From Candidatus Magasanikbacteria bacterium GW2011_GWA2_56_11 (GTDB lineage: Bacteria > Patescibacteriota > Patescibacteriia > Magasanikbacterales > UBA922): a stretch of 45,541 nt of DNA. The notes under the pieces were generated by a model. That model saw only the letters and a program-made list of their open reading frames with translations. It did not search any database and was not told the origin of the DNA. Location of the stretch: NCBI GenBank assembly GCA_001004885.1, contig LCRX01000010.1, positions 1 through 45,541 of the forward strand. The letters are read 5' to 3'. Shown in pieces: positions 3,265 to 30,918 of this stretch; within the stretch, counting starts at the first letter, position 1, and the number at the start of each line of letters is the position of its first letter. The translations under genes were made by a program, and so were the position numbers.

Positions 3265-4311
3265 ATGACCAATATCGCTTTCGAACCGAATGACGAAGCG
3301 GACGATCGCCTGGTGGAACCCGACATCCAAGCCGAGGAGGCGCAATTTGAAACCACGCTCCGGCCGGAGAGGCTCGCCGATTTTGTCGGCCAAGAGCCGA
3401 TCAAGCGTCCGCTCTCCATCTCTATTGAGGCGGCGCTGAAACGCAAAGAGCCGCTCGAACACGTGCTCCTCTACGGCAATCCGGGCCTGGGCAAAACCAC
3501 GCTCGCCCACATCATCGCCCGGGAAATGGGCGGCACTATTAGAGTAACGGCCGGCCCGGCCCTGGAGCGCGTTGGCGACCTGGCCGCTATTTTGACCAAC
3601 CTCAAAGCCGGCGACATCCTTTTTATCGACGAAATCCACCGGCTCAACAAAACCATCGAAGAGGTACTCTATAGCGCCATGGAGGACTTTGCCCTCGACA
3701 TTATTCTGGGCAAAGGCCCGGCCGCGCGTACTCTGCGGATGCCCTTGGAGCGCTTCACCCTCATCGGCGCCACCACCAAGCTGAATCTGCTCTCCGCCCC
3801 GCTGCGCGACCGCTTCGGCCACGTCTACCATCTGTCATTCTACGAGATAGACGACATCGAACGCATAGTCCGGCGCAACGCGGCGCTGCTCGAAATCGCG
3901 GTCGACACCGAATCGGCCGCCCTCATTGCCGCCCGCTCGCGCCGTACGCCGCGGGTGGCCAACCGACTCCTAAAGCGCGTGCGCGACTATGCTCAGGTCA
4001 AGCATAATGGTATACTAAATGCCGAAATCACCCGACAGGCCCTCGATATGCTGCGCGTGGACCACCAGGGGCTCGACGAAGTCGACCGCAAGATACTGCT
4101 CGCGATAATCGACAAATTCCAGGGCGGCCCGGTTGGCCTTTCTACGCTTGCCGCGGCCGTCGCGGAAGAAATCGAAACCATCGAACAAATCTACGAACCG
4201 TATCTTCTGCAACTTGGGCTGATAGAGCGCACCCCGCGCGGCCGCAAGGCAACACGAGCCGCGTATGAACATCTAGGCCGCGCGACCGGAGGACAGGCAG
4301 AGCTTATGTAG
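3265..4311 (+). CDS. ruvB: Holliday junction branch migration ATPase RuvB
   Basis: RuvB is the hexameric AAA+ motor that, with RuvA, drives Holliday junction branch migration in recombinational repair. The 348-residue length is normal for the family. Visible: [15 protein letters not shown] near the N-terminus, Walker [10 protein letters not shown], Walker [11 protein letters not shown], sensor I IGATTK, the arginine-finger region APLRDRFG, and the C-terminal winged-helix part with [21 protein letters not shown]. The ATG at 3265 is chosen because the promoter -10 lies just upstream and the N-terminus matches family length. No ruvA or ruvC lies beside it in this window. The next operon starts 55 bp downstream. 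Confidence 0.97.
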
Positions 4312-4366
4312 GCGGATACGGGAGGAATAAAAACCGCCGAGCGTTTCACTTACCACAAGGGCCAAT

Positions 4367-4630
4367 ATGCTCATCGCCATACCGCTCTACGTCACATTAT
4401 TCATTTATCTCGTCCTGCTCGCCGTCTTCGTGGCTTTCGCTGTCGTCAATTTCTACCATATTATCACTAGCGGCACCTTTACCCTGGCCAGCTTTAGCGT
4501 TACGTTTATTACCTTCGCGCTCACAGTGCTAACACTTTATTATACCTTCTACCTGGCCAAAGATGTTGACTGGCAGGTCAGCCTGATTCTGTTTAACTCC
4601 GACTGGCTGAGCGAATTTATTCCCAGCTAG
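4367..4630 (+). CDS. Small two-helix membrane protein, unknown function
   Basis: I do not recognise this 87-residue protein. It has a hydrophobic segment at about residues 3-33 and another at about 40-66, followed by a short polar tail, so it is predicted to be a small integral membrane protein. It lies 55 bp after ruvB, and its stop is separated by one base from the next start, so it is almost certainly co-transcribed and perhaps translationally coupled with the PH-domain protein that follows. A gene of this size directly ahead of a YdbS-like membrane protein may be its partner, which is inference only. Confidence 0.7.
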   Translation: MLIAIPLYVTLFIYLVLLAVFVAFAVVNFYHIITSGTFTLASFSVTFITFALTVLTLYYTFYLAKDVDWQVSLILFNSDWLSEFIPS

Positions 4631-20525: not shown

Positions 20526-21272
20526 CTATTCCACGGCCGCGTTTTGCGCCCCCTGCCACGACAGCTCATACGCCTGGCGCATCGCGTCGGCAATCGGTTT
20601 GCTCTCGAGAATTAGGGACATGTTCTCGACGTAGTTGATAAACGCCACTTTGTTATTGTAAATATTCACCTCGATGTCCGGCCAAAACAAACCGCGCGGC
20701 ACGATAACAGTTTGCGATAATTCGTTTTTATCGTACGGCTGGTGTTTGGCCTGCCAGCCCGAACCAGCGCCCGCGATCCGCCGGGCGCGGATGCCCAGCT
20801 TCACGCGCTTATCAATATAGAGGCGGTCGATAGAATACGTTTCGCGTTTGAAAAACTCGTCGGTGTTCCACTCCAAAATTTCGTCCGGGCGCGATTCGAG
20901 CGTATCATCGAGCACTTTTTGAATCGCCCCCTTACCCTCGTAAAAAATTATCCGCGGCTTGCCGTCCTTTTGGTTATAGCGGGCGGCGAGCTCGGGCATA
21001 GCCTTTTCTAGCTCCTCGTGCATGTCCGAGACCATGCGCAACAAAGCCTCCGGCGGCTCGGCCACAAATCGCGTCTTGCCCCGAGACAGAGTCTTGCCGA
21101 CAACACCTCGTCGAACCAGTTTGGCGAGAATCGAGTAGGCCGTGGTGCGCGGCAAGCCGGCTTCCTTGGCAATATCCTGCGCCGGAGCTACCGAGAGCTC
21201 AAGCGCCGCGAGATACACCTGAATTTCGTTTTTCGAAAACCCCAAACGCTGCAAGATAATATCAATAGTCAT
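20526..21272 (-). CDS. TrmB-family transcriptional regulator (paralogue 2)
   Basis: The 248-residue protein has the winged helix (LGFSKNEIQVYLAALELS, QDIAKEAGLPRTTAYSILAKL, RRGVVGKTLSRGKTRFVAE), a short helical linker and the C-terminal domain (RIIFYEGKGAIQKVLDD, YDKNELSQTVIVPRG, YNNKVAFINYVE). A longer frame to 21359 would translate the operator and promoter, so ATG 21272 is chosen. The promoter (TTGATT at 21323-21318, 17-bp spacer, TATATT at 21300-21295) gives a very short leader, and the operator at 21277-21291 lies on the transcription start. This points to autoregulation and to control of the divergent tRNA-like/NUDIX transcript. Effector unknown. Confidence 0.88.
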   Translation of the reverse strand: MTIDIILQRLGFSKNEIQVYLAALELSVAPAQDIAKEAGLPRTTAYSILAKLVRRGVVGKTLSRGKTRFVAEPPEALLRMVSDMHEELEKAMPELAARYNQKDGKPRIIFYEGKGAIQKVLDDTLESRPDEILEWNTDEFFKRETYSIDRLYIDKRVKLGIRARRIAGAGSGWQAKHQPYDKNELSQTVIVPRGLFWPDIEVNIYNNKVAFINYVENMSLILESKPIADAMRQAYELSWQGAQNAAVE

Positions 21273-21291
21273 AAATGACGAATAATTCGTC
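21268..21291. promoter_or_regulatory. TrmB-type operator, copy 1
   Basis: GTCATAAATGAC followed by GACGAAT-A-ATTCGTC (perfect inverted repeat 21277-21291). It lies between the -10 and the start codon of the minus-strand TrmB-type gene. An almost identical 24-bp sequence recurs at 21355-21378. Confidence 0.65.
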
Positions 21292-21354: not shown

Positions 21355-21402
21355 GTCATAAATGACGAAATAATTGTCGGACGCGTCCCCCTCTGGCATA
21401 CT
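21355..21402 (+). promoter_or_regulatory. TrmB-type operator copy 2 and divergent promoter
   Basis: The 24-bp element at 21355-21378 repeats copy 1 with few differences and overlaps the -35 of a plus-strand promoter: TTGTCG (21374-21379), 17-bp spacer, CATACT (21397-21402). Binding here would repress the transcript that runs into the tRNA-like gene and the NUDIX gene. Confidence 0.6.
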
Positions 21403-21465: not shown

Positions 21466-21699
21466 CGGGGCGTAGCGCAGCCTGGTAGCGCGCTCGATGC
21501 CGTGCCGGACAAAGGTTGGCCGTTCTCCCGCGTGAGTCCAGAACACGAGGTTCATGGACCCCACGTGCCGCGAAGATTGGTGGTTATGTGCTCCGGAGAC
21601 GTCCCAGCGTCCCCGCCAGCCACCACCCAGGTCCTGCAGGGAGAATTTGCCGCCTCCGGCCTAATCGAGAGGCCGCTGGTTCAAATCCAGCCGTCCCGA
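21466..21699 (+). tRNA. tRNA-Pro-like gene interrupted in the anticodon loop by structured sequence
   Basis: Both tRNA halves are clear. 5' half: acceptor CGGGGCG, TA, D arm GCGC-AGCCTGGTA-GCGC, G26, anticodon-stem strand CTCGA (21493-21497). 3' half: TCGAG (21665-21669), variable AGGCC, T arm GCTGG-TTCAAAT-CCAGC, acceptor CGTCCCG, A73. The halves pair in both acceptor and anticodon stems, and C1-G72 with A73 is Pro-like. Between the anticodon-stem strands lie 167 nt instead of 7. The insert folds by eye into nested helices: 21504-21509/21655-21660, 21523-21529/21639-21645, hairpin 21536-21544/21550-21559, and 21579-21584/21622-21627. I could not find a canonical group I core, and no excision leaving seven nucleotides gives U33. 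Intron, tRNA-like RNA or broken gene are all open. Confidence 0.7.
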
Positions 21700-21751: not shown

Positions 21752-22381
21752 ATGGACCGGGAGGCATTTTACGCCGAACAAATTGAAGCCTGGGAAAAAA
21801 CCGGCGGGCCGACGCGTGCCGTCGAGATTTTGGACGTATTTATCTTCAACCGATCCGGCGAGATGCTGGTGCAAAAACGGTCGTACCAAAAAGCCCATAA
21901 TCCCGGCCTGTTGGATAAATCCGTCGGCGGCCATATTCGGTCCGGCGACACGGCGGATTTTTCGGTCATGGTCGAGACGGTGCAGGAATTGCAGACCCCC
22001 TCCATTGTTTTAAAAAATGACAACGACTTTGAGAAGGCTCTAAAACTGCTGAGTGAATATATGGCGACAGTGGCCATTATTAAGCACGTAAAGACCAAAA
22101 TCTATATCATCGACAAAGTCCTCAAGGACAAGATCGTCCCCATTGCCAACAAGGTCCACCTCTATTACGGCATTTACGACGGCAGCACCCGGATCGTAGA
22201 CCGCGAAGCCAAAGGAACCCTGTTTTACTCTCTCCCGGAGCTCGAAAATGAAATGCAACAATTCCCCAAAGCTTTCACTTCGGACATGCATACATTCATC
22301 GGGGAGTTGCGCCCCGAAATGGAGCGCTTTCTCGCCTGTCTTTCTTCTGGCCAGCCGCCTTCCGCAGACCGACAAAAATGA
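21752..22381 (+). CDS. NUDIX hydrolase-like protein with divergent box
   Basis: The 209-residue protein opens with a NUDIX fold: RAVEILDVFIFNRSGEMLVQKRS, AHNPGLLDKSVGGHIRSGDTADFSVMVETVQELQTP. The NUDIX box GX5EX7REUXEEXGU is only partly kept (GX5D, X7, VET, QEL): the helix Glu residues survive but the first Glu and the Arg do not. The K(R)S...GLLDxSVGGH layout resembles the isopentenyl-diphosphate isomerase/MutT-like branch. NUDIX enzymes hydrolyse nucleoside or other diphosphates; a changed substrate or lost activity is possible. It follows the interrupted tRNA-like gene by 52 bp and is probably in the same TrmB-controlled transcript. Confidence 0.75.
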   Translation: MDREAFYAEQIEAWEKTGGPTRAVEILDVFIFNRSGEMLVQKRSYQKAHNPGLLDKSVGGHIRSGDTADFSVMVETVQELQTPSIVLKNDNDFEKALKLLSEYMATVAIIKHVKTKIYIIDKVLKDKIVPIANKVHLYYGIYDGSTRIVDREAKGTLFYSLPELENEMQQFPKAFTSDMHTFIGELRPEMERFLACLSSGQPPSADRQK

Positions 22382-23137: not shown

Positions 23138-23211
23138 CGCGGGGTAGAGCAGCCAGGCAGCTCGGCGGGCCCATAACCCGCAGGTCGCGGGTTCAAATCC
23201 CGCCCCCGCTA
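23138..23211 (+). tRNA. Initiator tRNA-fMet(CAT)
   Basis: The three GC pairs GGG/CCC in the anticodon stem, the C1-T72 mismatch in an otherwise complete acceptor stem (CGCGGGG/CCCCGCT), D arm GAGC-AGCCAGGCA-GCTC and loop CCCATAA mark it as the initiator. Residue 33 is C, not the usual U. CCA is not encoded. Confidence 0.93.
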
Positions 23212-23282
23212 CAACGGAGCCGGCGCGACCCTCCATAAGCAAAGACAAAGCGCGCCGCGCGCGCAGTAGCTTTAGCGAAGGC

Positions 23283-30555: not shown

Positions 30556-30606
30556 TTTGTGTCCATTTACCCAAAGCGGCGAATTATATTCGCCGCTAAT
30601 TGGTAG

Positions 30607-30918
30607 TGCCGAGGGCCAGGATCGAACTGGCGACACAAGGATTTTCCTTCTCTCCAAACGTTTCCGTAAGGCTTGGACTATCTCTTCATCCCGGTTTAAC
30701 GGGAGCTGGGCGCTTATCGAGGATTATTGTTGGGACTCACCTCGTAGTCTCTACACCTTCCCTGGGACTAAACCCTCCAGGGCTTGGCTCGGGATTACCA
30801 TTCCGGCGCACAATGGCTGCGGAAACAGGCTTCCCCGAATTCACCCAGTTTTGCACTCCGGATTACTCCAGAGGGGACCGAAAACCAGTCCTCTGCTCTA
30901 CCACTGAGCTACCTCGGC
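30607..30918 (-). tRNA. tRNA-Phe(GAA) with a group I intron
   Basis: Exon 1 (30918-30887) is GCCGAGG, TA, D arm GCTC-AGTGGTA-GAGC, A, GAGGA, CT. Exon 2 (30646-30607) is GAAAA, TCCTT, GTGTC, T arm GCCAG-TTCGATC-CTGGC, CCTCGGC, A. Joined, the loop is CTGAAAA, giving anticodon GAA and an ordinary tRNA-Phe. The interruption is exactly between U33 and G34. Confidence 0.93.
30647..30886 (-). ncRNA. Group I self-splicing intron in tRNA-Phe
   Basis: The 240-nt insert shows the group I core. P1: exon GAGGACU pairs with the guide GGUCC(CC)UC (30879-30871), with the U-G wobble at the 5' splice site. P- and Q-like blocks AATTCGGGGAA and AATCCCGAGCCAAG; R-like GTAGAGACTAC (30754-30744) and S-like ATAGTCC (30681-30675), whose GACTA/TAGTC pairing is P7. 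The last intron base is G. There is no endonuclease frame. This layout is like the small IC3 introns of cyanobacterial tRNA-Leu and Azoarcus tRNA-Ile. Confidence 0.92.

Follow-up and report, generated by a model that had tools for sequence, protein, structure and literature searches.

Engineered tRNA scaffolds keep the acceptor, D and T arms and carry a folded RNA in place of the anticodon loop; in E. coli, structured RNAs of up to ~250 nt are stable in this form (PMC3753655). A large RNA also occupies the position of the anticodon arm in tmRNA (RF00023), which has a tRNA-like end, and the bacterial Y RNA YrlA (RF02553) is a non-coding RNA with a tRNA-like module. Group I introns (RF00028) are inserted into the anticodon loops of tRNA genes. 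Finally, short insertions that are not introns occur in the rRNA genes of CPR bacteria, some of them at known RNase III IVS sites; like the 23S IVS elements, these are short structured inserts in a structural RNA gene (PMC11270868).

The tRNA-Pro-like gene that we describe here lies in a window of 45,541 nt (the whole stretch of DNA that was analysed). It has the layout of the engineered scaffolds, but those are man-made, whereas this case is natural and found in a bacterial genome. By analogy, the scaffolds show that the Pro-like RNA would be stable if it were made; they are not evidence for this RNA itself. Unlike tmRNA, the gene has a full D stem and an acceptor of the tRNA-Pro type, and it has no match to the Rfam tmRNA model; a separate tmRNA is present elsewhere in the sampled stretches of the source genome. 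A tRNA group I intron does occur in the tRNA-Phe gene of the window, but in contrast to it the Pro-like insert has no core match, is shorter (167 vs 244 nt) and leaves no working loop. The host of the insert is a tRNA, unlike that of the IVS and CPR rRNA insertions, and the gene scores 14.8 bits against the YrlA model, far from the gathering score of 69. The computed properties of the gene are an intact tRNA body, a predicted arm in place of the anticodon loop, the lack of any excision that restores this loop, and the existence of a second case adjoined by a promoter. Rather than an intron-bearing tRNA, the gene probably encodes a non-coding RNA with the shape of a tRNA, unless it is a tRNA gene that was broken recently. 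Its parts are as follows.

21466-21699, plus strand: tRNA-Pro-like gene with replaced anticodon loop (cloverleaf pairing, MFE structure)
21466-21472, plus strand: acceptor stem, 5' strand, CGGGGCG (7/7 pairs with 21692-21698, probabilities 0.92-0.98)
21475-21491, plus strand: D arm, stem 4/4, loop AGCCTGGTA with G18 and G19 (MFE structure)
21493-21497, plus strand: anticodon stem, 5' strand, CTCGA (5/5 pairs with 21665-21669)
21498-21664, plus strand: insert of 167 nt replacing the anticodon loop, predicted to fold into a long arm with a three-way junction and two hairpins at its end
21504-21529, plus strand: basal helices of the arm, 5' strand (partners 21639-21660, pair probabilities mostly 0.9-1.0)
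21530-21566, plus strand: hairpin A of the three-way junction (MFE structure)
21570-21637, plus strand: hairpin B of the three-way junction (MFE structure)
21639-21660, plus strand: basal helices of the arm, 3' strand (MFE structure)
21665-21669, plus strand: anticodon stem, 3' strand, TCGAG (pairing)
21675-21691, plus strand: T arm, GCTGG-TTCAAAT-CCAGC (5/5 pairs, probability 0.99)
21692-21699, plus strand: acceptor stem, 3' strand, and discriminator A73 (read from the sequence)

The initial annotation of this stretch, made from the sequence alone, had described intact acceptor, D, anticodon-stem and T-arm pairs around 167 nt in place of the anticodon loop, and both statements hold. All pairs of the acceptor (21466-21472/21692-21698, 7/7), D (21475-21478/21488-21491, 4/4), anticodon (21493-21497/21665-21669, 5/5) and T stems (21675-21679/21687-21691, 5/5) are present in the MFE structure; the 21/21 pairs are standard, including one G-U in the acceptor stem, and the pair T21498-A21664 extends the anticodon stem helix. 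The bases for tertiary contacts that were checked are kept (T8, A9, A14, G15, G18, G19 and A21), as are C48, T54, T55, C56, A58 and the discriminator A73. The gene thus has the intact stems and conserved tertiary bases of an elongator tRNA-Pro. A73 is directly followed by CCT, so that CCA is not encoded. The gene was missed by ARAGORN with default settings and by the Rfam tRNA model, and was detected by ARAGORN solely when introns were allowed; of 1000 dinucleotide-shuffled versions of the region, one gave any ARAGORN call. A strict split-cloverleaf detector, run on the whole window, returned just this gene and the tRNA-Phe with the group I intron. It returned nothing, and we saw no interrupted tRNA, in 400 kb of a relative from the same family (G028). 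The genome of this relative is a single contig with 30 tRNAs according to Rfam, none of which ARAGORN identifies as Pro, Gly, Phe or Cys.

Cloverleaf body and insert arm appear together in a single MFE structure, which contains the four nested helices that had been named from the sequence (21504-21509/21655-21660, 21523-21529/21639-21645, 21536-21540/21555-21559 and 21579-21584/21622-21627). Most pairs of the basal helices and of hairpin A have probabilities > 0.9, whereas hairpin B has lower values; the helices of the insert are short (up to 8 bp) and bulged. At the level of architecture, and as far as a predicted fold goes, the locus is a tRNA body whose loop has been replaced by a folded domain. 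The insert folds more stably than its shuffles (z = -3.58, and -2.88 on recomputation), but with the same script 17 of 200 random 167-nt windows of the contig reach the recomputed value, so stability alone proves little, and we have withdrawn the folding z-score as proof of selection. No Rfam family scored above its gathering score when matches up to E = 10 were considered. The RF00028 and group II models gave no match to the insert at E ≤ 10 even with permissive filters, which bears out the claim that there is no group I core and provides none of the strong hits to a known intron model that would have spoken against the initial annotation. The best Rfam match, Twister-sister (19.9 bits, gathering score 34), overlaps the T arm, looks like a chance hit and was rejected. 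By blastn, no homologue of the insert was found in 192 related genomes, phages and plasmids. It was also rejected as a repeat or mobile element, with no other copies in its own genome, and as a derivative of a tRNA, its best local score against the tRNAs of the genome being equal to the shuffle mean.

The anticodon arm of a tRNA is 17 nt long, and the loop of a tRNA-Pro follows the pattern U33-N-G-G-N. The insert can be cut in 18 ways such that an arm of 17 nt remains, and we enumerated all of them. As had been claimed for excisions leaving a 7-nt loop, U33 arises in 0 of 18, and a proline anticodon (NGG) arises in none either; U33 is present in 44 of the 45 ordinary tRNAs of the source genome. 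The best excisions yield the loop TGCCTAA, with G33. The same 7-nt loop would result from the direct repeat GCC at either end of the insert. As a positive control, the same listing was carried out on an interrupted tRNA-Met of a viral contig and returned CTCATGA, with U33 and CAU. Neither directly nor after one excision does the Pro-like gene offer a 7-nt loop with U33 and NGG, and the insert has neither the catalytic core match nor the host-restoring excision of a group I intron. With neither U33 nor a proline anticodon obtained from any excision, a standard intron is unlikely. In introns of the archaeal type, the exon-intron junction is a bulge-helix-bulge, i.e. a 4-bp helix between two 3-nt bulges; the junctions in the MFE structure, which is one predicted structure, do not have this form. 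ARAGORN labels the gene as a tRNA-Arg(CCU) with an intron. We rejected this label, because the loop TGCCTAA has G33 and the body is Pro-like; an ordinary Arg(CCT) gene on contig C12 also speaks against it. The single exception to U33 in the genome is an initiator-like tRNA-Met (window 23138-23212, plus strand) with C33 in the loop CCCATAA, a loop that is also found in a tRNA-Met of another genome (G182, locus L034).

The source genome is 99% complete and contains 45 ordinary tRNAs plus the tRNA-Phe with the group I intron. Judging from its gene content and size, it is probably that of a Patescibacterium. It has G-, T- and C-wobble tRNAs in every four-codon box except that of proline. The search for other tRNA-Pro genes that the initial annotation had proposed found TGG and CGG genes, but no ordinary Pro(GGG). 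As this is the only G-wobble tRNA of a four-codon box that is missing, the Pro-like gene is a candidate for the former Pro(GGG); GGG is not rebuildable, however, the flanks of the insert being without the bases of a Pro(GGG) loop. In the order as a whole, Pro(GGG) seems to be dispensable, since its ordinary pattern, which may miss variants, was met in just 29 of 86 genomes.

Pattern scans for more members were carried out in three sets of related genomes (86, 381 and 383), with a different gap range in each. Together the three scans span gaps of 105-220 nt, each range in its own set only, and all of them require the D-arm motif GCGCAGNNTGGT. In these sets and in IMG/VR, we found one further Pro-like case, in G075, a genome that belongs to the same order but to another family.

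L032 (G075:C16), 1683-1499, minus strand: second tRNA-Pro-like gene, 185 nt (pattern scan, cloverleaf)

Among the matches listed from 85,000 species genomes, a list filled up by tandem tRNA arrays, there was no Pro-like case beyond this one, and it is absent from the congener G076 and from the other genomes of that family. The acceptor, D and T stems of the second gene are intact, and 4 of 5 anticodon pairs are formed, the broken pair being 27-43. Its insert of ~115 nt is structured (z = -4.37). Here, too, the excisions yield neither U33 nor a Pro anticodon; U33 is present in 35/35 tRNAs of this genome. A promoter with 10/12 consensus positions (TTGACA-17-TAGTAT) lies directly upstream. As the same genome carries three ordinary tRNA-Pro genes (GGG, CGG and TGG), the product of the second gene would be an extra RNA. 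The two Pro-like genes are alike in architecture, their inserts are unrelated in sequence, and we saw no homology of the first insert with the second or with the flanks of the tRNA-Ile insert described below. The bodies are 88-89% alike, as against 91% for ordinary tRNA-Pro of other bacteria. We thus rejected the idea that the two bodies form one special family, each being as close to ordinary tRNA-Pro elsewhere, and the two cases may be independent. Downstream of the second gene, a further structured region of ~300 nt is followed by a terminator-like hairpin.

Two other tRNA genes of the source genome are interrupted in the anticodon loop.

Window 30606-30918, minus strand: tRNA-Phe(GAA) with a compact group I intron of 244 nt (RF00028 69.4 bits; ARAGORN with introns allowed)
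Contig C8 of the source genome (G000), 1918-2153 (locus L011, 119-354), minus strand: nested tRNA-Ile(UAU) (cloverleaf)

The stems of the outer tRNA-Ile(UAU) are complete (7/7, 4/4, 5/5, 5/5), and its anticodon loop is interrupted by ~160 nt which hold a complete second tRNA-Ile(UAU) (RF00005, 68 bits). When the outer halves are joined, ARAGORN calls a tRNA-Ile(TAT) with the correct loop. The ends of the insert overlap by TATA, which resembles a target duplication. This shows that anticodon loops were invaded more than once in the source genome, and the nested gene can be read either as a scaffolded RNA or as a tRNA gene lost to insertion.

The Pro-like gene is flanked by a divergent regulator gene and a NUDIX-domain gene, which begins 52 nt downstream.

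20526-21272, minus strand: divergent TrmB-family regulator (Pfam PF01978, E 1.6e-16)
21275-21291, no strand assigned: perfect palindrome ATGACGAATAATTCGTC at the TrmB start, putative operator 1 (sequence)
21362-21378, no strand assigned: imperfect copy with 3 mismatches, putative operator 2 (sequence)
21374-21402, plus strand: weak promoter-like TTGTCG-17-CATACT with TGn (read from the sequence)
21752-22381, plus strand: NUDIX-domain gene, weak PF00293 match (E 4e-4, just under the Pfam cut-off)

An exact 15-nt repeat, GTCATAAATGACGAA, occurs at the TrmB start (21268-21282) and upstream of the Pro-like gene (21355-21369); the first copy is placed within the perfect palindrome, the second within the imperfect one. 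The initial annotation had placed a TrmB operator in the promoter of the Pro-like gene. The shared repeat agrees with this, but the perfect palindrome is the one at the TrmB start, whereas the promoter copy carries three mismatches. The weak promoter overlaps this copy, matches 8/12 consensus positions, lies ~65 nt upstream of the tRNA body and falls below the scan threshold. From this arrangement, control of the Pro-like gene by TrmB and co-transcription with the NUDIX gene are plausible.

Three options had originally been offered for the locus, i.e. a new intron class, a dead gene, and a stable RNA that resembles a tRNA but has a giant anticodon arm. The failure of all 18 excisions to give U33 disfavours the first and leaves the other two standing. 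Tentatively, the best explanation is a tRNA-Pro-derived non-coding RNA that uses the tRNA body as a scaffold for a ~170-nt branched arm replacing the anticodon loop. Cloverleaf and arm form one MFE structure, and neither here nor in G075 does excision produce U33 or a Pro anticodon. The bases flanking both inserts differ from U33-N-G-G-N, so that a simple insertion does not account for them. Body pairs are broken nowhere in the first gene and once in the second, and decay would not hit the loop only. The G075 gene adds its good promoter, the lower z of its insert and the ordinary Pro genes beside it, and engineered scaffolds of the same layout are stable in E. coli (PMC3753655). Against this, the insert has no homologue in the sets searched that could show selection, its stability is unexceptional for the genome, the promoter of this copy is weak and CCA is not encoded; moreover, the two cases are alike in architecture and not in insert sequence, and their bodies resemble each other no more than they resemble ordinary tRNA-Pro of other bacteria. 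It is also quite conceivable, and only a little less so, that a small structured insertion together with loss of the loop recently destroyed a dispensable tRNA-Pro, the body being intact because the event is young. Such a loss seems tolerated in an order where so few genomes match the Pro(GGG) pattern, and of the G-wobble tRNAs for four-codon boxes the source genome lacks this one only. The ordinary stability of the insert and its lack of homologues support this reading; the tRNA-Ile loop of the same genome was also invaded, with its TATA overlap, and the GCC repeat at the insert ends would lead to a 7-nt loop. However, this loop is not of the tRNA-Pro type, the body pairs and tertiary bases are all undamaged, and the case from the other family keeps its body and a good promoter. 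The two readings are close. We lean towards the scaffold, with the dead gene close behind, because nearly only the loop was rebuilt in two genes with otherwise intact bodies, and because the G075 gene is not needed for decoding and lies behind a good promoter.

The introns of tRNA genes lie in the anticodon loop, as this insert does, and the genome has both a true tRNA group I intron and a tRNA-Ile whose excision gives a correct loop. It is nevertheless unlikely that the tRNA has an intron that belongs to an undescribed class and is excised by an unknown mechanism, given the outcome of the excisions, the lack of a group I, group II or other Rfam match, a junction that is not a bulge-helix-bulge in the MFE structure, and the three ordinary tRNA-Pro genes that remain in G075. 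We judge it at least as improbable that RNase III cuts the arm without ligation, as happens in fragmented 23S rRNA, giving a two-piece tRNA-like RNA held together by its stems. Short rRNA insertions outside groups I and II are common in CPR bacteria, some at RNase III IVS sites (PMC11270868), and the arm is predicted to be helical; but its helices are short and bulged, and the two-piece product would still be without a usable anticodon. An assembly artefact or chimera is very unlikely. The genome is in 23 contigs, but the gene sits mid-contig, its halves form one perfect cloverleaf, GC is continuous across it, and a second genome shows the same architecture.

For the tRNA-scaffolded RNA, we infer transcription, processing and a function. 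It would be transcribed from the promoter region that it shares with the divergent TrmB gene; TrmB may control it, and the NUDIX gene may be co-transcribed. Its ends would be trimmed by RNase P and the 3' tRNA enzymes, CCA would be added, and the Pro-like body would act as a closed, end-protected scaffold that is neither spliced nor used in decoding. More generally, it is possible, if doubtful, that some Patescibacteria-like bacteria make natural tRNA-scaffolded RNAs (with an unknown branched domain in the Pro-like genes and a second tRNA in tRNA-Ile) that are expressed, processed at their ends and do not decode. Should the Pro-like RNA be made, it would be the natural equivalent of a tRNA scaffold designed in the laboratory and would represent a type of non-coding RNA that ordinary tRNA searches overlook. 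Should the gene be dead, it would clearly capture the loss of a tRNA gene to an insertion; this small genome would then have at least two invaded anticodon loops, not counting the one with the group I intron.

Interrupted or unusual tRNA genes were also seen in viral contigs. In locus L266 (IMGVR_UViG_3300044712_000998, 4253-4437, minus strand), a tRNA-Met carries an insert of ~108 nt that splits CAU, is too small to be a typical group I intron and has no group I match. In the viral contigs L245, L246, L259 and L261, tRNA-Met-like 3' halves follow an unusual D-arm region that has an extra hairpin.
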